A DNA stretch of 64,000 nt from Sinomonas sp. P10A9 (GTDB taxonomy: Bacteria > Actinomycetota > Actinomycetes > Actinomycetales > Micrococcaceae). The translations under genes and the position numbers were made by a program. The notes under the pieces were generated by a model. That model saw nothing but the letters and a program-made list of their open reading frames with translations, was not told the origin of the DNA and did no database searches. The stretch spans positions 4,216,001 through 4,280,000 of the forward strand of contig NZ_CP163302.1 in the NCBI RefSeq assembly GCF_041022165.1, written 5' to 3'. Shown here piece after piece: positions 11,956 to 44,171 of this stretch (positions within the stretch are counted from its first letter, which is position 1; the number at the start of each line of letters is the position of its first letter).

Positions 11956-11997
11956 CCCCAACGATGCGGGGTCACGTCCCCCGGATGCGGGGGCTAC
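11954..11997. repeat. Intergenic copy of the 21-bp GATGCGGGGTCAC repeat, forming a hairpin
   Basis: One full 21-bp unit starts at 11963 and a second, diverged unit at 11984. Flanking TAGCCCC and GGGGGCTA pair, so the stretch can fold as a nested hairpin just after the peptidase stop and may terminate transcription. The same 13-mer begins repeat units inside hrpB at 45221, 45326 and 45347. Confidence 0.6.
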
Positions 11998-12177
11998 AGT
12001 GCGGGATCGGGCACGACGCCGGCCGCTCGCCGCGCCGGGTGGTCGTCGGCAAGGCGCGGGCCGGCACCGAGGACCGTCTCAAAGCGGACGTGTCACGAAT
12101 GTTCACAGGGCCTCAGGACTCAGCGCGCAGCCCGTCCTATCTGCTCCAAGGAGGACGCGCGCGCGGAGCAGAGCTCG

Positions 12178-14147: not shown

Positions 14148-14172
14148 TTTCCCTCCTGGCCTGTCCGGTCTC

Positions 14173-16383
<2,211 letters not shown>

Positions 16384-16896: not shown

Positions 16897-16903
16897 CTCG
16901 CGG

Positions 16904-16936
16904 GTGGACGGCGGCGCCACGGGGCCGCCGTCCCAC
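16904..16936. terminator. Terminator after the 16384 gene
   Basis: GTGGACGGCGGC (16904-16915) pairs with GCCGCCGTCCCAC (16924-16936) with one bulge around an 8-base loop, starting seven bases past the stop codon. There is no long U-run, as usual in high-GC actinobacteria. Confidence 0.65.
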
Positions 16937-16994
16937 TGCCCGTCCCCGGGATTTGCACAGCCTCCGCATAGCCCGGGCCCATAGTCTTCTCCCC

Positions 16995-18587: not shown

Positions 18588-18594
18588 GCCGGGA

Positions 18595-19365: not shown

Positions 19366-20591
19366 TCGCCGAGTCCATCCGGTTCGCCCTCTCGGGCATC
19401 GCGGCGAACAAGATGCGCTCCGTCCTGACCACGCTGGGCATCGTGATCGGCATCAGCGCCGTCATCACCCTCCTCGCGGTCGGCGCCGGTACCTCGAACC
19501 TGATCAAGGACCAGATCGGCAAGCTCGGCACCAACGTGCTGACCGTCAATCGCGCCGTCGCCACCGGCGGCCGGACCACGGGCGGCAGTGCGACGGCGAC
19601 CCGCACCCGCTCGACGTCGCTCACCATTGCAGACCAGCAGTCGCTCGGGGATCCCGTGCTTGCGCCGGACGTAGCGACTGCCGCACCGGTGGTCCAGGCG
19701 CAGTCCGTGACGGCCACGCTGGGCTCCTCGACGCACTCGATCTCCTCGACGCTGGGGACCTCGCCCTCGTACTTCGGGATCACGGCGTTCACGGCCGCGG
19801 CGGGCCGCGTGCTCGACGACGCCGATGCGGGCCAACGTGCCGTGGTGCTCGGCAACAGCGTGGCCGCGGACCTCGCGCAGAACGTCGCCTCCCTCGTGGG
19901 TCAGACCGTCTCCCTCAACAACCAGGACTTCACGGTGGTCGGTGTCCTCGCGCCGAAGGGCACGAGCGGCCTCAACGACCCCGACGACGTGGCCATGGTC
20001 CCGATCGACACCGCACAGGGCACCTTCACGGGCTACACGCAGAGCCTGTCCTCGATCGCCGTTCAGGCCAAGAGCGCCGACGTCATGACCGAGGCGCAGA
20101 ACGAGATCCAGCAGATCCTCGATGCGCGGCACCAGGTCACGAGCGACACCCGCGACTATCAGGTCCGCAACCAGGCCCAGGTGCTCTCGACGGCCACGTC
20201 CACGACGCAGACCCTCACGATCCTGCTCAGCGCCGTGGCCGGCATCAGCCTCCTCGTCGGCGGGATCGGCGTCATGAACATCATGCTCGTGACCGTCACC
20301 GAGCGCACGCGCGAGATCGGCATCCGCAAGGCGATCGGAGCGACGCGGGGCAACATCGTCCTGCAGTTCCTCGTCGAGTCCCTCATCATCTCGACGCTCG
20401 GCGGCATCGTGGGGATCCTCATCGGCTTCGGCGCCTCGAGCTTCCAGCTCTTCGGCATCCGTCCCGAAGTCCAGTGGTGGACCGTGTGGCTGAGCGTGGC
20501 CGTGTCCGCCGGGATCGGCCTCGTGTTCGGGATCTACCCGGCCAACAAGGCCGCCAAGCTCCGCCCCATCGACGCCCTCCGCTACGAATAG
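19362..20591 (+). CDS. MacB-like ABC transporter permease
   Basis: A 409-residue permease with the MacB layout. One N-terminal helix starts after [20 protein letters not shown], a large extracytoplasmic MacB_PCD domain spans about 40-280, and three C-terminal helices follow with the [18 protein letters not shown] motif before the coupling helix. The ATG overlaps the ATPase stop. Such tripartite pumps expel macrolides, peptides or lipids, and the substrate here is not evident. Confidence 0.9.
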
Positions 20592-20598
20592 AGCACCC

Positions 20599-21255
20599 AT
20601 GCGCGACCACACCCCAGACGCCACCGCCCCGACCGAGCGGATCACCACCGCGGGCCCCACGTCCCCGGTTCCGACGTCCCCGGTTCCCGCGGCCGGCGTC
20701 CCCCAAGGCAACGCCCCGCTGGCGCCAGTCCCCCCAGCCATGGCCGCACCCGCCGCCGTGCCGTGGGGCAGCCCGGCACCCACTGAGCCGGTCGACCTCC
20801 TGGGCACCCGCGAGGATGCCGTGCCGTGGGGCAGCCCGATGGCGAACCGCCGTGGCGAGGTCCCCCACGAGGGGCCCGTCGCCGCGGACGGCCTGCTCCC
20901 GGCAGGACCGGCCTTTTCCGCGGACTCGGTCGACGAGCCGTTTGTCCCCGCTCCGCGCTGGCGCGCCGGCAGGCTCACGAAGGTGCTCGTGGCGGTGTGC
21001 CTCATCCTGGCTGGCGGGCTGGGCGGGGCGGCCCTGCAGAAGGCCGTGGATGTGCGCTCCGGGGTGAGCGGGCGCGTGGGCCAGACCCAGTTCGGCACGG
21101 GGACGCAGAACGGAACGGGCCCCGGACAGACGGGCACCGGCGAGAACGGCAGCGGGTTCGGCGGCAGGAACCGCTCCTCGCAGTCACCGGGCAGCGCGCC
21201 GTCCTCGCCGCCCACGGCGGCGTCGGGCACTCCGTCGGGCGCGCCGACACCCTAG
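20599..21255 (+). CDS. Single-pass membrane protein, last gene of the MacB-like operon
   Basis: A 218-residue protein, unrecognised. The first 120 residues are Pro/Ala-rich and presumably cytoplasmic, with two copies of AVPWGSP about 30 residues apart. A single transmembrane helix ([21 protein letters not shown]) follows near 125-147, then a Gly/Thr/Asn/Ser-rich external tail. It begins seven bases after the permease stop. Its composition resembles the disordered tail of the adaptor, so a role in assembling that pump is possible. Confidence 0.65.
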
Positions 21256-21330
21256 CCGCACCGAGAGGCTACCGCCCCCCGGCCGCTCCCCTGCCGGCGA
21301 GTAGGCCGTCAGCGGCGCAAGGGGTCCACG

Positions 21331-22584
21331 CTAACCGCGGACCTCGGCGGGCGCGCCCTCCTTGCGGGTCACACCAGCGAGCGCGAGGGCCACCAGGATG
21401 GGCACGAGGATCACGAGGAGCGCGTGGCGCAGGCCCAATTGATCGCCGAGGAATCCGAGGAACGGCGGCCCTGCAAGGAAAGCAATGTAGCCGATGGTGG
21501 AGACCACCGCGACGCGTGCGGCCGCCTTCCGTGGGTCGTCCGCGGCTGCGGACATCCCCATCGGGAACGCGAGCGCCGCTCCAAGGCCCCAGAGCACCGC
21601 GCCCACGGCCGAGAGCCAATATGTGCCTGCCAAGGAATATGTTGTGAGTCCGATCGCCGCGGAGACCATGCTGATCCGGAGGGCGGCGACCCTCCCGATC
21701 CGGTCGATCACGCGGCCGCCGAACCAGCGCGCGAGGGTCATTGCACCGACGAACACTGCGAACAGCCCGGCACCTGCGGACTCGCTCGAACCGAGCCCGT
21801 CCACCGCACCCTTGGAGATCCAGTCATTGCCCGCACCCTCGGTGAGGGTCGCGCCAAGCACAACGACTCCGATCAGCACCGTGCGCGGGTGCCGCCAGGC
21901 GTCGAGCATGTTGGGCTTAGGCCCACTGGCCTCGGGAACAGGGATCGCAGCGCCGGCGAGCTGGTCAGGCGAGCCTCCAGCCTCAGGCGCGTGCCCAGCG
22001 TCGTGCGGAAGGAAGTACCGCGGAACCACCGCGATGATCACCACGACGACCACCATGATCCCGAACAGGTGCAGTGGCAGCGCCACACCCGCCGCGCTCA
22101 GGCCCGCACCGACGAGCGCTCCGAGCACGGCGCCGCCGCTGAACGCCGCGTGGAGCTTGGGCATGATCGTGCGGCCGAGCCGGTGCTCGACGTCCGCGCC
22201 CCCGATGTTCTGCGCGACGTCCCAGAACGCGACCCCCGAGCCGAAGAGCACCATCCCGACCGTCACCACCCACACGGACTGGATCAGCAGGCCAGAGGCG
22301 ATCACGGCTCCGGCCACGACTGCCATGGTCCCCCCGAACCGGACCGTGGCCTTGAGTCCGATCCGGTCCACGACTGCCCCCGTCAGCGGAAGCGACACGA
22401 GCGAGCCGATGGCACCCACGAGGAGCACGGCCCCCATCTGCCCCGTCGAGAGCCCGAGCGTTTCCGTGACGGACGGGATACGCGCGGCCCAGCTGGCGAA
22501 GATGAAGCCGTTCGTGCCGAAGACGATGAAGATCGCAAGGGCCGCGACGCTGACGGCGTCGCGGGACATGATGCGGGTGCTCAT
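21331..22584 (-). CDS. MFS transporter (YbjJ-like)
   Basis: A 417-residue protein with about 12 transmembrane helices. It begins with AALAIFIVFGTNGFIFASWAARIPSV, typical of the YbjJ/inner-membrane MFS group, and contains the loop motif VDRIGLKATVRFGG. It is divergent from a MarR regulator at 22748, with palindromes in the gap, so expression is probably ligand-induced. The substrate is unknown. Confidence 0.85.
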   Translation of the reverse strand: MSTRIMSRDAVSVAALAIFIVFGTNGFIFASWAARIPSVTETLGLSTGQMGAVLLVGAIGSLVSLPLTGAVVDRIGLKATVRFGGTMAVVAGAVIASGLLIQSVWVVTVGMVLFGSGVAFWDVAQNIGGADVEHRLGRTIMPKLHAAFSGGAVLGALVGAGLSAAGVALPLHLFGIMVVVVVIIAVVPRYFLPHDAGHAPEAGGSPDQLAGAAIPVPEASGPKPNMLDAWRHPRTVLIGVVVLGATLTEGAGNDWISKGAVDGLGSSESAGAGLFAVFVGAMTLARWFGGRVIDRIGRVAALRISMVSAAIGLTTYSLAGTYWLSAVGAVLWGLGAALAFPMGMSAAADDPRKAAARVAVVSTIGYIAFLAGPPFLGFLGDQLGLRHALLVILVPILVALALAGVTRKEGAPAEVRG

Positions 22585-22708
22585 GGCGCCGCCACGCAGA
22601 TCCCGTGGTGGGTGGAGGTGATGGTGGATCGCATGGGTCTACTCAATCACCATTTGGCGCGCCGCATCAGATCACGCCGCAAATCGATGGAGATAATCTC
22701 GCACAGCC

Positions 22709-22743
22709 AAAGTACTTTTCTAGCTACTTATCTAGTAAAGTAG
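22709..22743. promoter_or_regulatory. MarR operator/promoter region
   Basis: Two dyads lie close together: AAAGTACTTT, a perfect 10-bp palindrome at 22709-22718, and CTACTT-8-AAGTAG at 22724-22743. TAAAGT (22736-22741) ends exactly six bases before the marR ATG, so it is a good leaderless -10 buried in the second dyad. Autorepression by the MarR protein, and control of the divergent MFS gene, is inferred. Confidence 0.6.
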
Positions 22744-22747
22744 TTGC

Positions 22748-23269
22748 ATGCCCTCAGCCAGCCCCACCGCCCCCACGGACTACGTCGACGGCGTCCGCAG
22801 CCAGTGGAACCGACTCTTCCCGGGACTGGACACGGGCGCCGTGGACATCGTCGGGCGGATCAACCGCATCTCCCAGATCATCCAGCTCCGCAGCGACGCC
22901 GTGCTGGCCGCCAACCGCATCACGAGGGCCGAGTTCGACATGCTCTCGCTGCTGGCCCGCGCCGCGAGGCCGATGGCCCCTACCGAGCTCGCCGCAGAGC
23001 TGCTCATCTCCGGACCCGGCACCACCAAGAGGATCAAGAAGCTCGTGGACGCCGGACTCGCGGAACGTGAGGCCAATCCGCTCGACGGCCGCGGCACCCT
23101 CATCCGCCTCACCCCTCACGCGGCCAGCGTGCTTCGGCCCATCCTGGAAGACGTCCTCAGGCTCGAGGAGAGCCTGATCTCCGCCTTGGACCCCGCGGCT
23201 GCCAGCGCCCTGGCTGGGCACCTGCGCGCCCTGCTCTCGAGCCTCGAGCCGCAGTCCGGCGGTTCCTGA
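22748..23269 (+). CDS. MarR family transcriptional regulator
   Basis: A 173-residue winged-helix regulator: FDMLSLLARAARPMAPTELAAELLISGPGTTKRIKKLVDAGLAER is the recognition region, followed by the wing NPLDGRGTLIRLTPHA. There is no ribosome-binding site. The -10 hexamer TAAAGT six bases upstream implies a leaderless mRNA. It lies between a divergent MFS gene and a co-directional FUSC transporter gene 63 bases downstream, either of which it may control. Confidence 0.9.
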   Translation: MPSASPTAPTDYVDGVRSQWNRLFPGLDTGAVDIVGRINRISQIIQLRSDAVLAANRITRAEFDMLSLLARAARPMAPTELAAELLISGPGTTKRIKKLVDAGLAEREANPLDGRGTLIRLTPHAASVLRPILEDVLRLEESLISALDPAAASALAGHLRALLSSLEPQSGGS

Positions 23270-23332
23270 AGCCGGCCGCACCGACCCTCATTTTCCCCAT
23301 ACCCAGCGACGCACAGGAGGCGCCCCTCAGCC

Positions 23333-24409
23333 GTGAAACAGCATGCCCGAGAGTTCTTCCACCTTCCCCCCGCCCGCGGCCATCGCATCCCCGCACTCCG
23401 CGTCGCCGCAGGCATCGTCATCCCCCTGATCGCCCTCGTCCTCCTGGGCAGGGCGGATCTGACGATCTACGCGGTGTTCGGGGCGCTCACGGGCGTCTAC
23501 GGGCGGATGGAGCCGCATTGGCTCAGGCTCAAGCACCAGACGTACGCAGGGATCCTCATGTGTGCCAGCGTGGCCGGCGGCGTCGCCCTCGCCGCGGCGC
23601 ACGCGTCGGCGTGGGCCCTCACCGGGCTGGCCACGATCCTCGCCGGGGTGCTCTCGGTGGTCTCCGACCGCCTCAGCCTGCGCCCGAGCGGCCCGTTCTT
23701 CTATCTCTTCGCCTTCACCGCGAGCGCGTCCGTCCCGTTCGACGGCCAGCTCTGGGAGGCGGCCACGACGGCTGCGGCGAGCGTCGCCGTCGCGCTTCTC
23801 ATCGGGTTCGCGGGTCGCCTGCGTGCGCACCGCCACCACCCCGACCGCGGACTGCTCGAGGACCCGCACGCCCCGTGGCCCAGAATGCTCCGGCACGCGG
23901 GCCGGTACGTTGCGGCCATGGGCCTCGCCGGTTCGCTCGCGACCGCGCTCGGGCTCGGCCACTCCTACTGGGCCATGATCGCGGCGGCGGCCCCGATCGC
24001 CGCGGCGGACGCCACGCGCGGGCTGGTCCGGGCCGTGCACCGCGTGGTGGGCACCTACGGCGGGGTGGCGCTCACCGCTGGCCTGCTCACGCTGCACTGG
24101 GCCGCGCTGCCCTTGGCGGTGCTCCTCGCGGGCCTGCAGTTCATCGGCGAGGTCTTCGTGGTCCGCCACTACAGCATCGCCCTCGTGTTCATGACGCCGG
24201 TTGCCCTCATGATGACCGGGTTCGTTGCAGCGAGCCCCTCCCAAGGGCTCGTGGCCGACCGTGCCGTGGAAACCACGATCGGCGCGGCCATTGCCTTCGC
24301 CGTCATCCTGCTCACCACCAGCAGACGTCGCAGCGGGGCCGCCGGTGCCCCCGCCTCCCCCGCGCGCGTGCTGGCTGAGCACGGTCCAAGAGCCTCTGAC
24401 GCTGGCTGA
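23333..24409 (+). CDS. FUSC family transporter (aromatic acid exporter-like)
   Basis: A 358-residue protein with two sets of transmembrane helices flanking short cytoplasmic loops. The motif YAVFGALTGVYGRMEPHWLRLKH and the second-half HSYWAMIAAAAPIAAADATRG block are typical of FUSC/fusaric-acid-resistance proteins. GTG 23333 follows ACAGGAGGCGCC. It is likely cotranscribed with marR. Exporting aromatic acids under MarR control is a common arrangement, so this is a reasonable but unproven role. Confidence 0.85.
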   Translation: MKQHAREFFHLPPARGHRIPALRVAAGIVIPLIALVLLGRADLTIYAVFGALTGVYGRMEPHWLRLKHQTYAGILMCASVAGGVALAAAHASAWALTGLATILAGVLSVVSDRLSLRPSGPFFYLFAFTASASVPFDGQLWEAATTAAASVAVALLIGFAGRLRAHRHHPDRGLLEDPHAPWPRMLRHAGRYVAAMGLAGSLATALGLGHSYWAMIAAAAPIAAADATRGLVRAVHRVVGTYGGVALTAGLLTLHWAALPLAVLLAGLQFIGEVFVVRHYSIALVFMTPVALMMTGFVAASPSQGLVADRAVETTIGAAIAFAVILLTTSRRRSGAAGAPASPARVLAEHGPRASDAG

Positions 24410-32090: not shown

Positions 32091-33815
32091 CTACTCCGCC
32101 GTGCGCGTGGTGAACGGCAGCACGAGCCGGGACGGGTGCGTCGCGTCGCGGTACACCTTGTGGGTGACGGGCCGGCCCACGGGGAGGTGGAACGCGTCCG
32201 GGGGCAGGAGCGAGTTGTGCTCGTCCACGAGGGGCTCATCGTTGGAGAGCTCCACGGTGAGCCGATGCCCGGGCAGGAACGTGTTCGCGAACGGGTACAG
32301 CCGCACCACGTACTCCTCGATCTTCCCCGGCTCCACGGGCACGGTGCGCGTGTGCGGGTGGTACGGGCTGCCCTCGGTGGTGCGCTCGTCGAGCTCGCGG
32401 TGCGAGGCCTTGAGGTAGCCCGTGGTGATGAGCTGCCGCTTGCCGTTCGGGGCCGTGTCCCATAGGCGCAGGATGAAGTTCGTGTCGTCTTGGTCGATCT
32501 CGGCGAACAGGTGCGCGGCGCCGGTGCCCATCATCTCGGTGCGCTCGTCGAACACCTCTGTGGTCCAGGAGAGGACCTCGACCTTGTCCGTGACGGTGAG
32601 CGGGGCCTGGTAGAACCCGTCCGGTGCGGCGTGGGCGGTGCCCATGGGCTCGGGCTCGGCCGAGAGCTTGCGGCGCGGGCGGAGGTACAGCGGGCGGTAC
32701 TCGATGTCCTTGGGCGGGAACGCGGTGCCGGTGACGTGCTCACGGGAGCCCTCGACGAACACCGAGACCGCGGGCTCGTCCATGATGCCGTTGTCGATGC
32801 CCTTGATCCAGTAGTCGTACCAGCGGAACATCTTCTCGTGCTCCTCGATGAAGGGGCGCGACTGCATGGGCGGGTACGGGCCGATGTCCAGCTTCTTGGG
32901 GCCCTTGAGGGTGTTGAACAGCTCGATCGTGCCGTCCAGCGTCCAGCCTCGGCCCTGGTCGAGCTGGAGGTAGACCGGGATGTCGATGTTCTTGGCGAGG
33001 TTGACCGGGTTGCGCTCCTCGTACCACTCGCCGTCGAGCTCGTTCATGACGATGTCGAACCACGCTTCGTGGTTCTTCGGGTAGTTCAGCGTGTGGACCA
33101 GGTTCGGCCACGCGGCCGCGTCCGGATCCGCGAGCCGCTCCGCGACGAGCTTCTTGATCTCCTCCGGCGAATGCTGCTCGAGCATGCGGGACTTCACCCG
33201 GTCCGTGAACGCCCACCCGGAGTCGCCGCCGCGGCCTTCGCGCGCGGCACGCGGCATGAACCACATGACGCCGCCGTGGTACGTGGTCTCGTAGAAGTCG
33301 TAGTGGCCGCCGGAGACGAAGATCGCCTTGAGGTGCGGGGGCCGCTCGGCCGCGGCGAGGATCTGCATGGACCCGAAGTAGGAGATGCCGATCATGCCCA
33401 CGTTGCCGTCGCACCACGGCTGCTCGGCGACCCACTCGATGAAGTCGTAGGCGTCCTGGCCCAGAGATACGCCGCCGGCGTTGTAGTTGCCGATGTGCTC
33501 CCCGCCCGAATCGCCGGAGCCGCGCAGGTCCCCGATCACGTGGGCGTACCCCTCGCCGACCACCCGGGCGATGTCCCCGGCCTCGATGCAGCCGTCCCAC
33601 ATGGGGCTCGGCCGCCGCTGCGGCGGCATGGTCAGGGCGAGGGCCTGCAGCTCCTTGCCGTACGGGCTCAGCGCCACGAGCGCCGGCCGCGGCGCATCAT
33701 CGGTGCCGTGGTACACGTCGAGCGCGAGCTCAACGCCGTCCCGCATCGGGGCGCGGAGGTGCTTGCGGACGGTGATGCTGTGGCCTCCCGCGTCGATGTT
33801 CTCGTACTCAGCCAT
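32091..33815 (-). CDS. CocE/NonD family hydrolase (S15-like alpha/beta hydrolase)
   Basis: A 574-residue esterase of the cocaine-esterase/X-Pro dipeptidyl-peptidase family. The nucleophile elbow is GISYFGS (near residue 128). The acidic residue and catalytic His are expected in the LDQGRGWT and PYPPMQSRPF regions, and a C-terminal jelly-roll (about 370-570) completes the architecture. No signal peptide is present. ATG 33815 follows CAGGAGC and overlaps the last eight bases of the upstream MBL gene. It is the final gene of the six-gene leftward catabolic unit and probably cleaves an ester or amide in the pathway substrate. Confidence 0.9.
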   Translation of the reverse strand: MAEYENIDAGGHSITVRKHLRAPMRDGVELALDVYHGTDDAPRPALVALSPYGKELQALALTMPPQRRPSPMWDGCIEAGDIARVVGEGYAHVIGDLRGSGDSGGEHIGNYNAGGVSLGQDAYDFIEWVAEQPWCDGNVGMIGISYFGSMQILAAAERPPHLKAIFVSGGHYDFYETTYHGGVMWFMPRAAREGRGGDSGWAFTDRVKSRMLEQHSPEEIKKLVAERLADPDAAAWPNLVHTLNYPKNHEAWFDIVMNELDGEWYEERNPVNLAKNIDIPVYLQLDQGRGWTLDGTIELFNTLKGPKKLDIGPYPPMQSRPFIEEHEKMFRWYDYWIKGIDNGIMDEPAVSVFVEGSREHVTGTAFPPKDIEYRPLYLRPRRKLSAEPEPMGTAHAAPDGFYQAPLTVTDKVEVLSWTTEVFDERTEMMGTGAAHLFAEIDQDDTNFILRLWDTAPNGKRQLITTGYLKASHRELDERTTEGSPYHPHTRTVPVEPGKIEEYVVRLYPFANTFLPGHRLTVELSNDEPLVDEHNSLLPPDAFHLPVGRPVTHKVYRDATHPSRLVLPFTTRTAE

Positions 33816-34782
33816 GGATGGAATGCTCCTGGTTCTGAAGGGCACGGGTCAGGTAGCCGTCGAGGGTCGTGAAGAACGGGGACGGCTCGAGGGTCGGGTC
33901 GCCGTCGTACCCGAGCTCCCGGGCGACCCGCTCGAACGGCGAGTAGACCGACTCGGTCGGGACCACGCCGTCGTGCACATAGCGTTCGACGACGCCGCGG
34001 ATGCGCGCCTCGAGCGCGAGGCTCTCCTCGAGCGCGCGGTGGGCCTGCGCGGCGTCGAGTTCGACGCCGAACGGCTCGCCGTCCGCGCCGCGGTAGGGGT
34101 GCCCGAGGTACAGGCGCTCGGGGCGCACCTCGTCCCGGAGGTGCTCAAGGCTCGAGCGGTAGGCGTCCGGGTCGGTGTAGCCGGGGAACCGGTTGGCCGC
34201 TCCGTGGATCTGGACGGCGTCGCCCACGAAAACGGCGTTCTGCCCGCTGAGATTCTGCGTGGCGAGGCGGTAGGCCACCGAGCCGGGGGTGTGGCCGGGC
34301 ACGGGGTGCACCGAGAGGGTCACGTCCCCGCCGAGGGAGATGGTCTCGCCGCCGTGCACGAGGACGGTCGGCTCCATCTCGCCGGAGATAGCCGACGCCG
34401 CGGTCTGGGCCTGCTGCTGCACGCCGTCAGGGTTCTTGAGGTACTTCTGGCGACCCGCGGCGTACTCCTCGACGTGCCCGTCACGCGAGCGGAGCATGTG
34501 CGCGTCGGCCTCGTGGATCACGACCTTGGCGCGGCCTCCGGTGAGCTCCCAGAGGGCCTTCGCGCCACCGAGGTGGTCGATGTGCCCGTGGGTGAGGAAG
34601 ATCCACTTGATCTCGTCGATGCTGCGGCCGAGCTGCTCGAGTGCGGGGATCATGCCCTCCCGGGGGGAGGAGGCGATGCCCGTGTCGACGATCGCCGGCT
34701 CGGGCGCATCGATGAAGTAGCTGTAGAGGCCGAATCGGCCCCACGGCGAGACGAGCGGGTGGACGGTGGCGGTGCCGTTCAT
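33808..34782 (-). CDS. MBL-fold metallo-hydrolase
   Basis: A 324-residue metallo-beta-lactamase-fold protein. The metal motif THGHIDHLGG (HxHxDH) is intact, followed by later ligands in HPVPGHTPGSV and VFVGDAVQIHG. A helical C-terminal domain of about 90 residues resembles those of lactonase- or thioesterase-like members. It overlaps both neighbours (ATGA with the upstream esterase gene, 8 bases with the CocE gene). A lactone, thioester or ester substrate is likely. Confidence 0.9.
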   Translation of the reverse strand: MNGTATVHPLVSPWGRFGLYSYFIDAPEPAIVDTGIASSPREGMIPALEQLGRSIDEIKWIFLTHGHIDHLGGAKALWELTGGRAKVVIHEADAHMLRSRDGHVEEYAAGRQKYLKNPDGVQQQAQTAASAISGEMEPTVLVHGGETISLGGDVTLSVHPVPGHTPGSVAYRLATQNLSGQNAVFVGDAVQIHGAANRFPGYTDPDAYRSSLEHLRDEVRPERLYLGHPYRGADGEPFGVELDAAQAHRALEESLALEARIRGVVERYVHDGVVPTESVYSPFERVARELGYDGDPTLEPSPFFTTLDGYLTRALQNQEHSIHG

Positions 34783-35726
34783 CGTCCGCTCGCCTTCTCA
34801 GCCAAGGCGCCGGCGAGGAAGTCCCGGGTCTGGGCGAAGGCCGCGGCGTACTCCGGGATCCAGCCGAAGTTCGCCACGAAGCCGTGATTCGCGCCGCTAT
34901 ACCGCGTGACGGTCGCGTCGACGCCCACCTCCGCGAGGCGCCGGCCGTAGAGCTCGCCCTCGTCCCGCAGCGGGTCGAACTCCGCGGTGAGGATGAGGGC
35001 CGCCGGAAGGCCGGTAAGGTCCTCGCGTTTGATCGGGGAAACGAGCGGGTCGGCGGGATCGGCGCCGCTGTCGAGGTAGAACGCGTTGAACGGCTTCAGG
35101 CCCGCGGTCTCGAGACCGTAGCCCGTCGCATTCTCCCGCAGCGAGGCATAGCGGGCCTCGTCGAAGTCGAGGTCCAGAGACGGGTAGTAGAGGATCTGGT
35201 GGGTGATCCGGTCGAACCCGTCGTCGTGCGCCATGGCAGCGACGGCGGCGGCGAACGTGCCGCCGGAGCTGTCGCCGGCCACGGCGAGCGTGGTCCTGTC
35301 CCACGTGAGGTCCTCGCCGTGCTCGGCGACCCAGCGGACCACGCCGTAGCAGTCGGTCAGGCCTGCGGGGAAGGCGGCCTCCGGGGCCCTGCGGTACCCG
35401 ACTGATATGACCTTGACGCCGGTCTCCTTGGCCAGCGCACGGGCCACGTGGTCGTGGGTGTCGAGGCTTCCGAGGAAGAACGCGCCGCCGTGAAAGTACA
35501 CGATGACCCCATACGAGTCGGCCTCGGCGGGCGTGTAGATCCGGACCGGGACGTCGCCCGACGGCGTGGCGGCGACGGCGTCGTCGACCGCGTGCAGCGG
35601 GAGGCGGTCGTCGGGGGCGGGGACGTGCGACTCCTCGTCGGCACGGAGCACGGCAGGGTCGATCGGGCCCGGCGGCGGGGCGGGGAGACTGGCGACGATA
35701 CGGGCGATCTCCGGATGCAGCGCCAT
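34779..35726 (-). CDS. HSL-family alpha/beta hydrolase (lipase/esterase)
   Basis: A 315-residue hormone-sensitive-lipase-type esterase. The oxyanion loop is FHGGAFFLGS, the nucleophile is in AVAGDSSGGTFAA, the Asp is in TAEFDPLRDEG and the His is in GANHGFV. It acts on short acyl esters in the cytoplasm. ATG 35726 lies four bases after the flavin monooxygenase stop. It belongs to the same unit as two other hydrolases, so the pathway seems to include several ester- or ring-opening steps. Confidence 0.93.
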   Translation of the reverse strand: MALHPEIARIVASLPAPPPGPIDPAVLRADEESHVPAPDDRLPLHAVDDAVAATPSGDVPVRIYTPAEADSYGVIVYFHGGAFFLGSLDTHDHVARALAKETGVKVISVGYRRAPEAAFPAGLTDCYGVVRWVAEHGEDLTWDRTTLAVAGDSSGGTFAAAVAAMAHDDGFDRITHQILYYPSLDLDFDEARYASLRENATGYGLETAGLKPFNAFYLDSGADPADPLVSPIKREDLTGLPAALILTAEFDPLRDEGELYGRRLAEVGVDATVTRYSGANHGFVANFGWIPEYAAAFAQTRDFLAGALAEKASGR

Positions 35727-36901: not shown

Positions 36902-37855
36902 TCAGTTCTTGATGCTCAGGAAGTCGGCGGGGCTCTCGACGAAGATCTTGGTGATGGTCTCCTCGTCGACGCCGGCCTTGCGCAGGTCGGGGATGAGCTG
37001 CTCGAAGATGTAGTTCACGGTGTGGCCCTTGACGCCGGGCCAGCCCAGCGGGCTGCAGTTCGCGTCGGCAGAGGCGAGGACCTGGTCGGCGTGGCCGCCC
37101 TGGACGAAGCGCAGGAAGTGCTCGAGCCGCTTGTTGCGCGGCCGGGCCCAGAAGGGCGGGTCGGGCAGCTCGGTCTCGTAGCCGAACGTGTCGAAGCCGA
37201 GGCGGCCGCCCTGCTCGACGATCCAGGTGTCCTGGGTCTTCTCCGCATTGACGCCGTCGTCCACGTGGCCGAAGAGCACGCGGTCCAGCGGCAGGCCCTC
37301 CTCGCGGAAGATCGCGATGGCGGGTTCGGCGTCGATCGCGAGGTGGGTCAGGATCGGTACGCCGGTCTGCACGGCGGCGCGGGCGGCGGCGCGGTAGATG
37401 CGCTTGTCCAGTTCGGTCATGCGCCCGCCGCGGCTCACGCCGACCTTGATGACGCCGGCTTTGGCCCCCGTGGCGCCGATGCCCACGGTGATCTCGTGGA
37501 TGAACTGGGCCGCGAGGTACTCGACGGGCGCGTTCGCGAAGTGCGGCAGCGCCGTGTCGCCGCCCACGAACCCGGTGCACGCGACGATGTGCACGCCGGT
37601 CTTGGCGGAGAGGGACTTGTAGTAGTCCACGTCGCGGCCGTTGCAGATGCCGGTCGCGTCCACGAACGTCCCGCCGCCGTTCTCATGGAAGGCGCGCAGC
37701 TTCGGCACCGTCTCCTCGTACCGCTGCTCGGGGGTTTTCCACCACGTCGTGTCCAGCTCGGAGCCCGGCATGCCGTAGCCGATGTGCTCGTGGATGGCCA
37801 CGAGGCCGAGTTCTTCCGCGGGGATGGTTCCCAGGACCGTGTTCACCTTGGACAT
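36902..37855 (-). CDS. Phosphotriesterase-family metal hydrolase (lactonase-like), active-site intact
   Basis: A 317-residue TIM-barrel amidohydrolase. All six PTE-family metal ligands are present: H22 and H24 in IHEHIGYG, K137 in VIKVGV, H171 in ILTHLA, H197 in LFGHVDD and D264 in ASADAN. Family members hydrolyse lactones or phosphoesters at a binuclear metal site. ATG 37855 lies four bases after the stop of a homologous gene whose metal site is lost. The two probably arose by duplication and may work together. Confidence 0.92.
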   Translation of the reverse strand: MSKVNTVLGTIPAEELGLVAIHEHIGYGMPGSELDTTWWKTPEQRYEETVPKLRAFHENGGGTFVDATGICNGRDVDYYKSLSAKTGVHIVACTGFVGGDTALPHFANAPVEYLAAQFIHEITVGIGATGAKAGVIKVGVSRGGRMTELDKRIYRAAARAAVQTGVPILTHLAIDAEPAIAIFREEGLPLDRVLFGHVDDGVNAEKTQDTWIVEQGGRLGFDTFGYETELPDPPFWARPRNKRLEHFLRFVQGGHADQVLASADANCSPLGWPGVKGHTVNYIFEQLIPDLRKAGVDEETITKIFVESPADFLSIKN

Positions 37856-37859
37856 GGGG

Positions 37860-38897
37860 TCACGCAGCCTTTGCGATCGAGAGGGCCAGGAGGTTGCGCG
37901 GGTTGTCCACGAGGATGCGCTGGGCGTCCTCGTCGGCCAGGCCCTGCGCCGCCAGGAGGGGCATGAAGGCTGAGAGGAGGTAGCTGAACGGCACGTCCGA
38001 ATCCGGCTGGCCCTTCGCGACGCCGATCGCGTTGGACGAGAGCAGGATCCGGTCCGCGTGCCCCTCCCTGACGAGCTCGAGCACCGCGGCAACCCGCTCG
38101 GCGTCGGTGAGGTGGTCGGCGTCGTCGTCCAGGCCCACATGGTCGAACGCGACGAAGGCGCCCCGACGGGCGACCTCCAGCGGCGCGCCCGCAGCGACCG
38201 CATCCTTGCGGTCGAGACCGCCGACGACGACGCGGGCGGCCGGGAGCTCCTCGTCCAGGACGACCTCGAGCTCGGCGACGGCATCCTTGCCGTAGCGGAT
38301 CGAGAGCGGGACCCCCGTGGCGAGGGCGGTCCGGGCCGCGCCGCGGAACAGGCTCTCGTCCGTGGGCGTCATGCCCGCGCGGGTGGCAGCGGTGGCCACC
38401 AGCCCAGCGGCGCCGCGCCGCTCGACGCGCGGCACCACCATGCCCTCCGTGACCTCCTTGGTGAAGAGGACAGCGAACTTCTCGGCCGGCCACGGCGTGG
38501 GCGGATTGGTCTGCGGCGTGAGGAAGTAGCCCCCGAGCATCTCCTCCGGGCCCATGCCCGTCGAGGCGACGATGTGCACGCCGGTGCTGCGCGAGAGCGC
38601 TTCGAGGAGCAGGACGTCGCGGCCGTGGAACATGCCCGTGCTGTCAACGATGGCCGTTCCGCCGTGCTCGCGGAAGTCCGCGAGCTTGGCCGCCAGGGCC
38701 TCGAAGATCTCGGCGCGGTCCATCGTGACGTCGAACGCGTACTCGGCGCCCGGGACCACCGAGAGCAGCGCCTCGTGGACCGCGACCACCCCCAGCTCGT
38801 CGGCGGGGATCGGGCCCAGAACAGTATTGACGGACGTGCCGGAGCGCGGCTCGTCCGTGTGGATATCGCCGAGGGCGATGGCTGTGGGGTGACTCAA
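37860..38897 (-). CDS. Phosphotriesterase-family paralogue lacking the metal site (probable pseudoenzyme)
   Basis: A 345-residue homologue of the next gene, with shared VNTVLG-IP-ELG-VA-HE, GRDV and TGVHIVA blocks. Five of six metal ligands are replaced: HEH is HEA (A43), Lys is A168, and the two strand His are R201 and G227. The Asp is N289. Length and fold are otherwise intact, so decay by random mutation looks unlikely. The start is a TTG at 38897, preceded by AAAGGAGAGG; no ATG fits. It is the first gene of the leftward operon. A structural, regulatory or substrate-binding role beside its active paralogue is my inference. Confidence 0.85.
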   Translation of the reverse strand: MSHPTAIALGDIHTDEPRSGTSVNTVLGPIPADELGVVAVHEALLSVVPGAEYAFDVTMDRAEIFEALAAKLADFREHGGTAIVDSTGMFHGRDVLLLEALSRSTGVHIVASTGMGPEEMLGGYFLTPQTNPPTPWPAEKFAVLFTKEVTEGMVVPRVERRGAAGLVATAATRAGMTPTDESLFRGAARTALATGVPLSIRYGKDAVAELEVVLDEELPAARVVVGGLDRKDAVAAGAPLEVARRGAFVAFDHVGLDDDADHLTDAERVAAVLELVREGHADRILLSSNAIGVAKGQPDSDVPFSYLLSAFMPLLAAQGLADEDAQRILVDNPRNLLALSIAKAA

Positions 38898-38974
38898 GGC
38901 CTCTCCTTTGGAGCTTGGGGACGGGGGCTTGGCGAAGGGGAAACACCCGGCGAGAGCCCGGCGTACTGTGCCTA

Positions 38975-39097
38975 GCATCACACTCTCTTTACATGATGTC
39001 AAGAAACTTTCCATCGCGTTTCTATCGTCACGTCCGCGAATCATGCATCACGTTGTGACTCTTGACACTATGTAAAGATACAGGCAAACTGTGATGC
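38975..39097. promoter_or_regulatory. Symmetric divergent promoter/operator of the catabolic locus
   Basis: Two 17-bp near-palindromes of type CTTKACATNATGTMAAG lie at 38987-39003 and 39061-39077, in mirror orientation. Each contains a TTGACA hexamer directed toward the gene set it faces, so a bound repressor would cover both -35 elements. Outer GCATCACA (38975) and TGTGATGC (39090) form a further inverted pair. Transcription starts are not proven. The TetR regulator at the right end of the locus is a candidate binder, though an unlinked GntR- or LacI-type protein is also possible. Confidence 0.65.
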
Positions 39098-39140: not shown

Positions 39141-40898
39141 ATGAGTCAGGTCAGCACGACGCCGGGCGGAGGCTCGGCACGTGCCACGTTCGTGGCCGCC
39201 TACAGCGCAGTCACCCTCGCCCAGATCACCAACGCCCTGCCCGGCGCCCTCAACGGCACGTTCGCCAACGACTTCCATACGTCGGGTGCGGGCCTGACTT
39301 GGATCGCGGGCATGTTCATGATGGGCATCGTCGTCTTCGAGCTCAGCTGGGGGCTCCTCGGCGACCTGTTCGGACGGAAGAAGCTCATCTACGCGGGGGC
39401 CGTGGCCACCGCCGTCGGCTCTGTCCTCGCCGCGCTCGCGCCGACCACCGGGATGATGATCTTCGCCCAGGCGATCGGCGGCATCGGCGCCGGCATCCTC
39501 TTCCCCATCTCGCTGTCGATGATCGCCGCCATCACACCGGATCACCGGGCGCGAGCGCGGGCCATCGCCACGTGGGCGGGCTTCCTCTCGCTCGGCGCAG
39601 TCATCTCCCCCGTCCTCGCGGGCCTCACCGCGCAGATCTTCACGGTTCCCAGCGCGGCCGGAGCTCCGGGAGGCGCTACGGCCGTGTTTCACGGCTGGCG
39701 CGTCGCCTACTACGTCGCGGCCGCACTCGCCGTCGTCGTCCTCGTCGTTGCGGTCCGCGCCACTGACTCCGCCGCCCCCCAGGGACGGAAGCTCGACCTC
39801 CCGGGGCAGTCCACCCTCGCGCTCGGCCTCATCGCCGTCCTCTTCGCGACGGTCCAGGCTGTCGATGCGGGCTTCGGCTCGCCCGAGGTCATCGCGAGCT
39901 ACGTCGTGGGCGGCATCCTGCTCGTCCTCTTCGTGGTCATCGAGTCGCGGACCCGCCAGCCGCTCATCCACCTCTCGCTGTTCAAGAACAGCGCCTACTC
40001 GATCACCGGAATCGTCGCTGTCACCGGCATGTTCGCGTTCCTCGCGATCGCCTTCAGCACCAGCGTCGCCGTCGGCGGGCTCGCGCTGGCAGACACCTGG
40101 AAGGTGGGCGTGCTGTTCGTCTTCATCCAGGGTCCCGCCTTCCTCCTGATCCCCGTGGTGGGGTGGCTCATCCACCACGTTGCGCCGCGCTGGGCGCTCA
40201 CCGCCGGCTTCGCCTTCATGGCCTTGTCCGGCTACTGGCTCTCCACGTTCTCCCTCGGCGTCCCGGAGCAGTTCGGCGGCACCCCGTGGACGGCCTTCAT
40301 CCTTCCCCTCCTGTTCCTCGGCATCGGCTTCGCACTCACGATCGGTTCCATCACCGCCGTCGCGATCAACACCGTCCAGCCGAAGGACATCGGCATGGCC
40401 TCGGCCACGACGAACCTCCTGCGCGACCTCGGGTTCGCCCTCGGTCCGGTGATCGGCTCCGCCATCGCGTTCAGCATCGGCGCGTCGGTCTTCGCGGGCC
40501 CCCTCGCCGGCATCCTCAACGGGGCCGGGCTGCCCGCGGACGCCGTCGCCGGGCTGTCCCAGATACCGCCGCTCGGATTCCTCTCGGGCTGGGATGGCGT
40601 CATCGCGCAGTTCTCAGGTCAAGCGCTTGCCGGGGGCGCGCCCCAGCAGGCAGTCAGCGGCATGGTCGGCGCCCTCGGCGCAGTCCAGCACCAGATCCAA
40701 GGTGTAGCCGGCACATCGCTGGGCCAGGGCTTCCAGATGGTGTACCTCGTGGCCGCCGTCGCGGCGACGATCTCCGCCCTCCTGACCCTCTTCATCTCCG
40801 GGCGCTCGACGGCACCCTCCGCTGATGCGATCGCAGAGACCACCGAGGCCAACGCCGAGGCTGCGGCCGATGCGGCCGCCGTGACCTGCAGGGACTGA
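39141..40898 (+). CDS. MFS transporter (DHA2 family) of the catabolic locus
   Basis: A 585-residue, 14-helix transporter with the loop motif GLLGDLFGRKKLIYAGAVATAVG and the helix-5 segment GFLSLGAVISPVLAGL. The C-terminal hydrophilic tail is Ala/Glu-rich. AAGGAG sits 11 bases before the ATG. It is the first gene of the rightward arm, and the P450 gene follows after 53 bases. Uptake of the pathway substrate or export of a toxic intermediate are both possible. Confidence 0.9.
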   Translation: MSQVSTTPGGGSARATFVAAYSAVTLAQITNALPGALNGTFANDFHTSGAGLTWIAGMFMMGIVVFELSWGLLGDLFGRKKLIYAGAVATAVGSVLAALAPTTGMMIFAQAIGGIGAGILFPISLSMIAAITPDHRARARAIATWAGFLSLGAVISPVLAGLTAQIFTVPSAAGAPGGATAVFHGWRVAYYVAAALAVVVLVVAVRATDSAAPQGRKLDLPGQSTLALGLIAVLFATVQAVDAGFGSPEVIASYVVGGILLVLFVVIESRTRQPLIHLSLFKNSAYSITGIVAVTGMFAFLAIAFSTSVAVGGLALADTWKVGVLFVFIQGPAFLLIPVVGWLIHHVAPRWALTAGFAFMALSGYWLSTFSLGVPEQFGGTPWTAFILPLLFLGIGFALTIGSITAVAINTVQPKDIGMASATTNLLRDLGFALGPVIGSAIAFSIGASVFAGPLAGILNGAGLPADAVAGLSQIPPLGFLSGWDGVIAQFSGQALAGGAPQQAVSGMVGALGAVQHQIQGVAGTSLGQGFQMVYLVAAVAATISALLTLFISGRSTAPSADAIAETTEANAEAAADAAAVTCRD

Positions 40899-40951: not shown

Positions 40952-42124
40952 ATGAGCACTCCACTCGAATCAGACATCGACATCTGGTCCGACGAGATCG
41001 TCGTCGACCCCTACCCCGCCTACGCCGAACTGCGCGAGCAGGCCGGCGTGGTCCACCTCCCCAAGAACGACCTCTACGTCCTCACCCGCTATGACGTCAT
41101 CCGCGACGCCCTCGGTGATCCGGCGACGTTCTCGTCGACCACGCTCGGCTTCAACCCGATGGTCAACGAGGCGCTGCAGGGGACCTCGCTCGCATCCGAC
41201 CCGCCGATGCACACGCAGCTGCGGGCCACGCTGTCGGAGAACCTCACACCGCGCGCACTTCGTGGGCTCAAGGTCGTCATCGACGAGAAGGCAGAGAAGC
41301 TCGTCGCCGAACTCGTCGCCGCGGGCAGCTTCGAAGCCATCGACTCGCTCGCACGGGCCTTCCCGCTCGAGATCGTCGCCGACCTCATCGGCTTCAGCGG
41401 GCACGTCAAGGACAACATGCTGCGTTGGGGCCAGGCCGCCATGCAGGTGCTCGGCCCGATGAACCAGCGCACGCAGGAGAGCTTCCCCATCGCGGGCGAG
41501 CTCTACGGCTGGTGCTCCTCCGTCAAGGCCGAGGACCTCACTCCGGGCTCGATCGGCCGGGGCATCTTCGACGCCGAGGCCCGCGGCGACATCCCCGAGG
41601 GCACGGCCGGCCACATCATCCACCAGTACCTCGGCGCCGGCGTGGATACGACTATCGCCTCTATCGGGAACATCGTGGCCCTCTTCGGTCGCCACCCCGA
41701 GCAGCTCGAGATCGTCTGCGAGAACCCGGACCTCGTGCCTGCGGCCTTCGCCGAGGTGCTGCGCTACTGGGTGCCGATCCACATCTGGGGCCGCACCACG
41801 ACCCGCGAGGTCGAGATCGACGGCTACACCGTCCCGAAGGGCGCCCAGATCGGACTCCTCATCGGCGCGGGCAACCGCGACCCGCGCCACTACGAGAACC
41901 CGGACACCTTCGATGTCCGACGCAACCCGACCGACCACCTCTCGTTCGGCTACGGCCCGCACGGGTGCGCCGGCCAGGGCCTCGCACGGCTCGAAGGACA
42001 CGCGATCGTCAGCGCGCTGGCCCGCCAGGTCCAGTCGATCACGATCTCGGAGCCGGTCCGGGTCCCGAGCAACATGACCCGCAGCATTGAGTCCCTCCGC
42101 GTCCTCGAGGTGGTCGCAGCATGA
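40952..42124 (+). CDS. Cytochrome P450
   Basis: A 390-residue soluble class I P450. I-helix oxygen-activation motif GAGVDTT (~228-234), ExxR in EVLR (~268-271), and heme loop FGYGPHGCAGQG with the thiolate ligand at about Cys339. Its redox partners are encoded immediately downstream with overlapping stop/start codons, so it has a dedicated electron chain. The likely role is hydroxylation of the locus substrate; regio- and substrate specificity are unknown. Confidence 0.96.
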   Translation: MSTPLESDIDIWSDEIVVDPYPAYAELREQAGVVHLPKNDLYVLTRYDVIRDALGDPATFSSTTLGFNPMVNEALQGTSLASDPPMHTQLRATLSENLTPRALRGLKVVIDEKAEKLVAELVAAGSFEAIDSLARAFPLEIVADLIGFSGHVKDNMLRWGQAAMQVLGPMNQRTQESFPIAGELYGWCSSVKAEDLTPGSIGRGIFDAEARGDIPEGTAGHIIHQYLGAGVDTTIASIGNIVALFGRHPEQLEIVCENPDLVPAAFAEVLRYWVPIHIWGRTTTREVEIDGYTVPKGAQIGLLIGAGNRDPRHYENPDTFDVRRNPTDHLSFGYGPHGCAGQGLARLEGHAIVSALARQVQSITISEPVRVPSNMTRSIESLRVLEVVAA

Positions 42125-42321
42125 GCGGCCGGATCGAACTCGACCGCCCCCGCTGCGAGGGCCACGGCCTCTGCGAGGAGGCCGCACCCCGGCTCATGCA
42201 CCTCGACGACGACGGCGATCTGGTGATCGATGTGGAGGAGGTCGACGGCGCGGATCTCGAGGCCGCCAAGGCGGCCGTCCGCGTATGTCCAGTCGCCGCC
42301 CTCCGCCTGGTCTCGGCATGA
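42121..42321 (+). CDS. Ferredoxin ([3Fe-4S]-type, His-variant)
   Basis: A 66-residue acidic ferredoxin with the pattern CxxHxxC at the N terminus (CEGHGLC) and a final CP (VCPVAAL). His replaces the cysteine usual at the second cluster position. This variant occurs among actinobacterial P450 ferredoxins and generally carries a 3Fe-4S cluster. It overlaps both the P450 stop and the reductase start (ATGA each time). It should shuttle electrons from the reductase to the P450. Confidence 0.95.
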   Translation: MSGRIELDRPRCEGHGLCEEAAPRLMHLDDDGDLVIDVEEVDGADLEAAKAAVRVCPVAALRLVSA

Positions 42322-43529
42322 CGGCACCTCTCCGGCGCATCGTCGTCGTCGGCAACGGCATCGCCGGGCTCACCGCCTGCGACTCGCTACGCTCCGGCGG
42401 GTTCGACGGCGAGCTAACGGTCGTCGGCGCCGAAACGCACCACCCGTACAGCCGCCCGGCTCTGTCGAAGGCGCTCCTGCACGGCGATGATGACCTGAAC
42501 GCGCACCAGCTGCCCGAGCCGACGCACGAGGCATCGGTGCTGCTCGGCGTCGGTGCCGCCGGTCTGGACGTCGAGGCGCGCGTCGTCAAGCTCGACGACG
42601 GCGGCGAGGTTCCGTACGACGGCCTGGTCATCGCGTCGGGCTCGCGGGCGCGGCGCCTCGCTCCCGAGGCCGGCCGGTCCCCTGACGGGGCCGGAGCGCA
42701 GGACGTCACCCTCCGCACGATCGAGGATGCGATCCTGCTCAAGCAGCGCGTCGAGTCCCGGCCCTCCGTCGTCGTCGTCGTCGGCGGCGGGCCCCTCGGC
42801 ATGGAGGTCGCCTCCGGCTGCCTTCACGCCGGCTGCGAGGTCACGCTCGTCACGGACGGCCAGCCTCTCGCGCGCCAGCTCGGAGGCTACCTGTCCGAGG
42901 TCTTCACCTCTGCAGCCGCGCGGCGCGGGCTCCGGTTCGTCCAGGGCGGCACGGCCCGTCTGGCCGGATCCGGCGCGGACGCGCGGGTGGCCCTCGCCGA
43001 CGGAACGGTGCTGGAGGCGGACCTGATCGTCGCGGCGGTGGGAGATGAGCCGAACACGGGCTGGCTCGCGGGCTCCGGGATCCTTGCCGGGGACGGCTCG
43101 CTGCGCGTCGACTCGCGGGGCCGCGTCCGCCCCGACATCGTGGCGGCCGGGGACGTGGCGCACTTCCCGACCCGGCGGGGCATGGGCCGCGTGCCGCTGT
43201 GGACGAGCGCGATCGATCAGGCCAAGTCCGCGGCGGCGGGCCTGCTCGAGGGCGACTCGGCACCCGAGTTCGACTTCGAGCCATACTTCTGGACCGAAGC
43301 CTTCGGCCTTTCTCTCAAGGCGGTCGGCTTCACGCCGATGGTCGGCGTCCCGGACTACCTCGAAGAGGGCGCCGCTGCCGAATCGAAGCTGCTGCGATGG
43401 CAGCACGGGGACGGGTCCGGGACGGCCGCGGCGATCAACTACCGGATCGCCATCCCGAAGCTGCGGCGCCTGGCCGGTTCCGGCCCGGAGGCGCTCGCGC
43501 GCCCATCGCTCACCGCACTCCAGCATTAG
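42318..43529 (+). CDS. FAD-dependent ferredoxin reductase
   Basis: A 403-residue rubredoxin/ferredoxin reductase-type flavoprotein. FAD-binding VVVGNGIAGLTACDSLR at the N terminus, NAD(P)H-binding VVVVGGGPLGMEVASG mid-protein, the second FAD motif DIVAAGDVAHFPT, and a C-terminal reductase domain. It is the third gene of the overlapping P450-ferredoxin-reductase set and completes the electron chain. Confidence 0.94.
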   Translation: MTAPLRRIVVVGNGIAGLTACDSLRSGGFDGELTVVGAETHHPYSRPALSKALLHGDDDLNAHQLPEPTHEASVLLGVGAAGLDVEARVVKLDDGGEVPYDGLVIASGSRARRLAPEAGRSPDGAGAQDVTLRTIEDAILLKQRVESRPSVVVVVGGGPLGMEVASGCLHAGCEVTLVTDGQPLARQLGGYLSEVFTSAAARRGLRFVQGGTARLAGSGADARVALADGTVLEADLIVAAVGDEPNTGWLAGSGILAGDGSLRVDSRGRVRPDIVAAGDVAHFPTRRGMGRVPLWTSAIDQAKSAAAGLLEGDSAPEFDFEPYFWTEAFGLSLKAVGFTPMVGVPDYLEEGAAAESKLLRWQHGDGSGTAAAINYRIAIPKLRRLAGSGPEALARPSLTALQH

Positions 43530-43538: not shown

Positions 43539-44171
43539 ATGCCTTCATTGCGGGAAGCCCAGAAGCAGCTGACTCGCGACAGGATCGTGCAGCGGGCCCT
43601 CGAGCTGTTCGTCGAGAAGGGGTACTCCGCGACGACGATCGACGAGATCGCCGCCGCGGCGGGCACCACGCGGGTCACGTTCTACGCCTATTACCCGTCC
43701 CGCACGGACCTCATGAAGGACTTCATGGCGCGTGTCAACGAGATGCTCGACCGCGCCTACGGACCCAACAGCGCCTCGACGGCGGCAGAGCTCGTGGACG
43801 TGGTCCACGAGGGCGCGCTCGAGGGGGTCCTCGCGTGGCTCGAGTCCCGCGCCGCGCTGTGGCCGGTGTTCCGTCCGTACCTCGACGTCCTCGACGAGGC
43901 CGCCGCCGTCGATGCCGAGGTGCGGGACATGGTCGAGTCCTGGCACGAGGAGGTCATCTCGGACATCGTCCGGGGGATGGATCTGGCGGGCCGCTTCCAG
44001 GAGGAGACCCGCCACATCCGCGGGACGCTGGCCTTCACACAGCTCGACTACGTCGCGACGCTGTGGACCCGGCGCAAGTACGAGCCGAACCGCGAACATG
44101 CGATCGAGGTGCTCGCCGACAGCTGGTACCACCTGCTCTGCGACGAACCCCGGCCGATCGAGGGCCCGTAG
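43539..44171 (+). CDS. TetR family regulator of the P450/catabolic locus
   Basis: A 210-residue regulator with helix-turn-helix GYSATTIDEIAAAAGTTRVTFYAYYPSRTDLMKDF. It has its own leaderless-type -10 (TAGGAT, 43527-43532) six bases before the ATG, overlapping the reductase stop codon. It can therefore be expressed apart from the operon. Its position at the end of the rightward arm suggests it senses a pathway compound, but where it binds is not shown. Confidence 0.92.
   Translation: MPSLREAQKQLTRDRIVQRALELFVEKGYSATTIDEIAAAAGTTRVTFYAYYPSRTDLMKDFMARVNEMLDRAYGPNSASTAAELVDVVHEGALEGVLAWLESRAALWPVFRPYLDVLDEAAAVDAEVRDMVESWHEEVISDIVRGMDLAGRFQEETRHIRGTLAFTQLDYVATLWTRRKYEPNREHAIEVLADSWYHLLCDEPRPIEGP

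Follow-up and report, generated by a model that had tools for sequence, protein, structure and literature searches.

Two adjacent genes of the phosphotriesterase (PTE) family lie on the minus strand of the Sinomonas sp. P10A9 window, by which we mean the whole stretch of 64,000 nucleotides that was analysed. The upstream gene (37860..38897, TTG start, 345 aa) encodes a protein without the family's full set of metal ligands, which we call the ligand-less copy and propose to be a pseudo-subunit, and the downstream gene (36902..37855, 317 aa) encodes an active copy with all six metal ligands. Both open reading frames were found where the first-pass annotation, made from the letters of the DNA, had placed a pair of homologues. 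The ATG of the active copy follows the stop codon of the ligand-less gene by 4 nt (TGA CCCC ATG). The TTG is preceded by AAAGGAGAGGCC, a ribosome-binding site (AAAGGAGAGG, 38900..38909, minus strand) can be read from the sequence, and the Arthrobacter homologues L021 and L039 have a start codon at the matching point, in agreement with the TTG start and good ribosome-binding site that had been proposed. Since the next upstream gene, encoding an MFS transporter, is divergent, with a 19-bp inverted repeat in between, the ligand-less gene is also first in its operon, as had been claimed.

At an E value of 0.001, each copy matched PF02126 and no other Pfam family (175.3 bits for the active and 122.7 bits for the ligand-less copy; cut-off 22.4), and the pair supplied the only two matches to this family in the 4.29 Mb genome; PF04909, the family of the AibH1H2 type, was not matched. 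The match of the ligand-less copy spans profile positions 3-297 of 298, which places it in the family by sequence over the full domain. Neither copy reached the cut-off of the NCBIfam equivalogs for OPH (organophosphate hydrolase; cut-off 500, active 110.1, ligand-less 62.5 bits), PRK09875 (cut-off 486, 104.6 and 78.7 bits) or phospho-furanose lactonase (cut-off 630, 60.5 and 61.6 bits). The aligned metal positions (active/ligand-less: H22/H41, H24/A43, K137/A168, H171/R201, H197/G227, D264/N289) are exactly those given in the first-pass annotation. The active copy thus carries the binuclear metal ligands (HxH, K, H, H, D) as H-H-K-H-H-D, whereas the ligand-less copy reads H-A-A-R-G-N and lacks the set. 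By its sequence and predicted fold the ligand-less copy is a PTE homologue, and judged from its ligands it is not a catalytic PTE.

Downstream of the pair, on the same strand, follow genes for an FAD-dependent monooxygenase (PF01494; 35731..36879), an alpha/beta hydrolase (Abhydrolase_3; 34779..35726, start inferred), an MBL-fold hydrolase (33808..34782) and a CocE/NonD-family hydrolase (32091..33845). Relatives of the monooxygenase and of the alpha/beta hydrolase were found in 61/61 related loci, and relatives of the MBL-fold and CocE/NonD hydrolases in 59/61 each, some of the loci ending ahead of these last two genes. The gene set is not a single transcript everywhere, because 13 of the 59 MBL matches lie on the opposite strand. 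On the plus strand, the divergent MFS transporter (39141..40898) is followed by a cytochrome P450 (40952..42124) whose closest solved relatives are CYP199 (each with matches in 36/61 loci, some of them weak), a small ferredoxin-like ORF (42121..42321, start inferred) that overlaps the P450 stop and by eye resembles a Caballeronia plasmid ferredoxin, a pyridine-nucleotide-dependent (ferredoxin) reductase (42318..43529, start inferred; matches in 33/61 loci, some weak) and a TetR-family regulator (43539..44171). The operator-like inverted repeat between the divergent genes has two 19-bp arms of the TTGACANNATGTAAAG type, at 38986..39004 (plus strand) and 39060..39078 (minus strand), which read TCTTTACATGATGTCAAGA and TCTTGACACTATGTAAAGA. 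Such sites recur in related loci: in the 250 bases before the ligand-less gene, 30/61 loci had one with no more than one mismatch (20 mononucleotide shuffles averaged 0.0), and 43/61 had one when up to three mismatches were allowed (shuffle average 0.45). The repeat is possibly the TetR operator.

The entire gene set is also present in one row on plasmid p2 of Caballeronia insecticola (L161, NC_021295.1, locus 11464-24131), in the order TetR, P450, ferredoxin, reductase, ligand-less copy, active copy, FAD monooxygenase, alpha/beta hydrolase, MBL, CocE, transporter, MFS. The two PTE-family genes overlap there by 4 nt, and their ligand positions read SSVRGS (ligand-less) and HHKHHD (active). It appears that the genes travelled between phyla together, as one set. 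Among the plasmid matches listed, the Caballeronia record alone exceeds 50% identity, and a search of virus contigs found no relative.

How uniform is the loss of ligands among homologues? We compared the ligand-less proteins of the window and the 61 related loci (n = 62) with the active copies of the window, 59 related loci and G005 (n = 61); interrupted active copies (L052, L057), the frameshifted ligand-less gene of G005 (L067) and the weak match L064 were omitted from the ligand counts. The full ligand set was missing in 62/62 ligand-less proteins, and all six ligands were kept in 61/61 active copies. At the six positions in turn, the ligand-less proteins had H in 62; A in 59 and S in 3; A in 40, T in 19 and V in 3; R in 61 and T in 1; G in 45, D in 16 and N in 1; and N in 56 and S in 6. 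The pattern recurred in 22 further loci from family and phylum genomes (HHKHHD in 22/22 active copies, the set in none of the ligand-less copies, G005 being read in part), which are not independent, because several share percentages with the 61 loci. A wider set of 240 ligand-less homologues was formed from the best 120 of 1983 matches to the window protein (its own entry included) and the best 120 of 2099 matches to the Caballeronia protein, in searches that return only proteins of 0.55-1.75 times the query length. None of these 240 had the full set: no ligand was kept in 120, one in 119 and two in 1. Conversely, the six ligands were all present in each of the best 120 matches to the active copy, itself among them. 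As the full set occurs in 0/240 of the best homologues, a number that counts the window's protein, the difference is neither chance nor recent decay. The best 120 of the 2099 Caballeronia-query matches kept none of the six ligands, and even the position of H41 was occupied there by S in 93, G in 10, C in 9, A in 5, R in 2 and a gap in 1. Among the matches listed, most of which are nameless, relatives of the Caballeronia protein came from Caballeronia, Paraburkholderia, Cupriavidus, Pusillimonas, Marinobacter and Marinobacterium, so that the uniform loss among the best 240 extends over two phyla.

Other residues are strongly conserved. In the best 240 homologues, 99 residues reach at least 98% conservation, among them a single His (H253), no Cys and no Lys, a composition that speaks against a replacement metal site of a conventional type. 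When His, Cys, Asp, Glu and Lys were listed as candidates for such a site, just H253 and carboxylates reached 98%, the latter being several Asp and Glu residues including D85, D229, E118, E148 and E159; a site formed by carboxylates only may still exist. Arg occupies the H171 position (R201) in 228/240 and Asn or Ser the D264 position in 234/240. R201 and H253 thus stay conserved in the emptied pocket and form a possible anion-binding site.

We then asked whether the ligand-less gene is under selection. Pairwise dN/dS (Nei-Gojobori) was calculated for the 1453 of 1770 pairs with dS of 0.1-1 in both genes. For the ligand-less copy the median was 0.27 (0.09-0.59), compared to 0.22 for its active partner, and the ligand-less ratio was the higher one in 1237/1453 pairs. 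The ligand-less copy is thus constrained, slightly less so than its partner, and this somewhat faster evolution is a point against an obligate subunit. A locus from Sinomonas sp. ASV486 (L003) matches at 97% identity; between it and the window, dN and dS were 0.017 and 0.041 for the ligand-less gene (a ratio near 0.4, from few changes) and 0.012 and 0.188 for the active gene. Open full-length frames of the ligand-less gene, with more than 280 aligned residues, were present in 61/61 related loci. The scattered stops or absence of purifying selection named in the first-pass annotation as evidence against a conserved protein were not what we found in these loci. Some assemblies do deviate. In one genome of the same genus (G005, C1:3358196-3359160), the ligand-less gene is frameshifted beside an intact active gene, either a real loss, which would weigh against an obligate subunit, or an assembly error. 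The active copy is in pieces in Arthrobacter sp. Hiyo8 (L052), where several other members of the gene set match just in part, and in Microbacterium elymi (L057); sequencing errors are possible in both. The C-termini of the ligand-less proteins are shortened or altered in the L053 and L048 assemblies.

The two copies are inherited together. A close active copy (at least 74% identity) is present in 22 of the 245 family genomes, and the ligand-less copy adjoins it in the same 22, in G005 in its frameshifted form; among 396 genomes of the phylum (E limit 1e-20), either copy occurred only in the window's genome and in G293, both of which have both. No orphan of either copy was thus found among these 245 and 396 genomes, and the other PTE-family matches listed in these searches were at most 37% identical to the query. 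The ligand-less gene precedes the active gene in 59/59 uninterrupted loci, with a gap of 3-63 nt (4 nt in the window). A presumably inactive paralogue is therefore co-encoded with an active one across the set, Proteobacteria being represented by one record, that of Caballeronia. Taken together, the uniform loss of ligands, the purifying selection and the co-occurrence without orphans point to a conserved pseudoenzyme, as the first-pass annotation had suggested.

To place the two copies within the family, we built a midpoint-rooted tree in which 16 pairs and that of Caballeronia were joined by 42 further members of the PTE family, including near-duplicates such as L117 and L133. The ligand-less and active groups are sister clades, with support of 100 for the joint node, 100 for the active group and 72 for the ligand-less group. 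The string HHKHHD was found in 39 of the 42 other proteins, and the 3 that deviate do so at the lysine position alone. The tree is most simply explained by a duplication within this lineage and a subsequent loss of the ligands, before the gene set spread. The separate trees of the two partners (60 loci) had 15/57 splits in common in all, compared to a mean of 0.22 and a largest value of 3 in label shuffles. Among well-supported splits (17 in one tree, 25 in the other), 12 were common and one pair conflicted, and the partners' pairwise protein distances had a correlation of 0.77. When support is ignored, just these 15/57 splits are shared, which weighs against an obligate partnership, and the co-occurrence of the copies could stem from transfer of the operon without physical contact.

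Conservation within the ligand-less protein is concentrated in one region. Mean column entropy (61 rows, L053 omitted) was 0.72 bits, and the 50-residue stretch with the lowest value, residues 88-137, had 0.23 bits; none of 2000 position shuffles, which ignore the correlation between neighbours, was as low. Residues 121-140 had 0.10 bits, and the C-terminal half was the more variable half. The loop that comes after beta-strand 3 lies here; together with the segment behind it, it takes up residues 113-161 (38415..38561, minus strand), and it is longer in the ligand-less than in the active copy. Residues 121-138, LGGYFLTPQTNPPTPWPA, do not differ between the window, Corynebacterium L061 (overall identity 56%) and Caballeronia (57%); 16/18 of them are invariant across the 62 proteins, and the segment is nearly invariant from Actinobacteria to Burkholderiales. 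PTE-like lactonases are homodimers (PMC3468530), and residues 97 and 98 of SsoPox line an interface cavity that joins the two active sites (PMC7084321). We matched the strand-3 loop to SsoPox 97-98 because of the shared numbering, and by this analogy the loop should face the dimer cavity.

Structure prediction was done with AlphaFold2 on a fused chain, in which the intervening stop codon was read as a residue. With 18 rows the model had a pLDDT of 71.4 and a pTM of 0.49, and with 97 rows a pLDDT of 87.8 and a pTM of 0.54. Both barrels fold in these models and their relative placement is not confident, the short linker and the 18 paired rows limiting this test. In the 97-row model the ligand-less barrel was confident overall, the strand-3 loop being one of its less certain parts (block 101-110 of the model, pLDDT 58), which could fit a loop that binds a partner. 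Foldseek placed PTE structures first; the VIA-align rows cover the active half alone (337-653), so that sequence and pLDDT are the basis for the fold of the ligand-less half.

As ligand-less relatives are kept beside a metal-bearing copy in many soil bacteria, the ligand-less gene is probably not in decay but codes for a non-catalytic partner subunit, and we consider it fairly probable that this subunit pairs obligately with its metal-bearing PTE-family partner. An ancestral PTE-family gene would have been duplicated; one copy would have retained the binuclear metal site and catalysis, and the other would have lost its ligands while retaining the barrel and the long, near-invariant strand-3 loop. 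By analogy with the homodimeric relatives, this loop most likely packs at the subunit interface, where it would shape or cap the active site of the partner, and the pair would act as a hydrolase (opening an ester or a lactone) in an inducible aromatic-degradation pathway. A bolder version is a tentative one that we hold to be somewhat doubtful: this would be the first obligate hetero-oligomeric PTE-family enzyme, in which the LGGYFLTPQTNPPTPWPA loop inserts at the partner's active site and completes the substrate pocket, within an undescribed aromatic-degradation pathway common to Actinobacteria and Proteobacteria.

Could the emptied pocket serve another purpose? The conservation of H253 and of Arg at the H171 position suggests that it may still bind something, which weighs against a pure pseudo-subunit, and the ligand-less protein could then be a separate carrier of substrate or product, or a soluble sensor, without a stable complex with the active copy. 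The polar pocket residues kept in the best 240 homologues (R in 228/240, N or S in 234/240, H253 at least 98%) would suit such a role, as would the clustering of four hydrolases, an FAD monooxygenase and a P450, which makes labile intermediates plausible. However, the most conserved part of the protein is the strand-3 loop and not the more variable C-terminal half, the gene set already has a TetR regulator, and the adjacency to the active paralogue in 59/59 loci would be superfluous for a carrier, so that we regard this role as unlikely. The same conserved residues, that is H253, D85, D229, E118, E148, E159 and the Arg, together with a barrel predicted with high confidence, could instead belong to an enzyme that converts a neighbouring intermediate by a new, metal-free chemistry or with another metal site. 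This, too, is improbable: the 99 conserved residues of the best 240 offer no Cys or Lys and a single His, even H41 is replaced in the Caballeronia-query set (best 120 of 2099), and the His/Asp ligands are present in all 42 other proteins in the tree, with the complete six in 39. As for a decaying duplicate or an annotation artefact, to which the frameshifted copy in G005 and the C-termini of L053 and L048 might point, the dN/dS values and the homologue set rule out a pseudogene, and with purifying selection, open frames in 61/61 loci, many homologues in two phyla and co-inheritance this explanation is scarcely credible. The non-catalytic partner subunit remains the reading that we prefer.

The neighbouring genes hint at the substrate. 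CYP199 enzymes, the closest relatives of the P450, act on substituted benzoates, and the FAD enzyme is closest to tropone 2-monooxygenase and 6-hydroxynicotinate 3-monooxygenase. The substrate of the pair is probably an aromatic compound, and the likeliest reading of the gene content, held with low certainty, would be an aromatic ester or lactone that is funnelled to a ring-cleavage route. A trio resembling the gentisate pathway was observed within 10 kb of the pair in 12/61 loci (L004, L009, L025, L035, L058 and 7 others), a hint to the end of the pathway. The best model for its cupin was gentisate 1,2-dioxygenase, at 234.9 bits, below the curated cut-off of 442.1, and its other members belong by NCBIfam/Pfam to the maleylpyruvate isomerase family (above cut-off) and the FAA hydrolase family. 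No gentisate-like genes were found within the window; elsewhere in the genome there were two matches to gentisate dioxygenase, both below cut-off.

Finally, we compared the pair with known systems. The fold of the active copy (the active half of the model) is common to PTE, OpdA, SsoPox and SisLac. Dihydroorotase belongs to the amidohydrolase superfamily. In the aspartate transcarbamoylase of Pseudomonas, an inactive dihydroorotase-like chain (pDHO) is necessary for the activity of its partner (PMC7053772). The role proposed here resembles that of pDHO and of the auxiliary subunit AibH1 described below; the partner of pDHO, however, is ATCase, an unrelated protein, in a dodecamer, whereas here it is a sister paralogue of the same family. 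The 2-aminoisobutyrate hydroxylase AibH1H2 of Rhodococcus combines a catalytic subunit related to the amidohydrolase superfamily with an auxiliary one, together with a ferredoxin and a ferredoxin reductase (PMC12141560). Yet AibH2 belongs to PF04909 and not PF02126, the auxiliary AibH1 still binds metal, and AibH2 homologues sometimes occur without AibH1, whereas we found no orphan here, and the ferredoxin of the window adjoins a P450. Closer to the proposed role of the loop is the non-heme oxygenase pair TlxI/TlxJ, which in its active form depends on a loop of the catalytically incompetent paralogue to bind substrate (PMC12141560); the chemistry differs, and the loop role was shown for Tlx and is inferred here. 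The ligands of SisLac (H22, H24, K137, H170, H199 and D256; PMC3468530) have nearly the same numbers as those of the active copy, and in the lactonases named in that paper both chains of the homodimer have a metal centre, whereas here one partner is ligand-less. Titles and abstract starts in the open-licence PMC literature, which are weak evidence of absence, yielded neither a ligand-less PTE partner nor a phosphotriesterase pseudoenzyme, and none that we found names this gene cluster.

Databases label the ligand-less proteins phosphotriesterase or aryldialkylphosphatase despite the lost metal site. The PTE family serves as a model in studies of enzyme evolution and pesticide detoxification. 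The characterised relatives considered here are homodimers, and a conserved ligand-less sister would be a natural test case for the transition from homodimer to obligate heteromer that may follow duplication, as well as for the contribution of an inter-subunit loop to catalysis. The pair also marks a conserved catabolic gene set.
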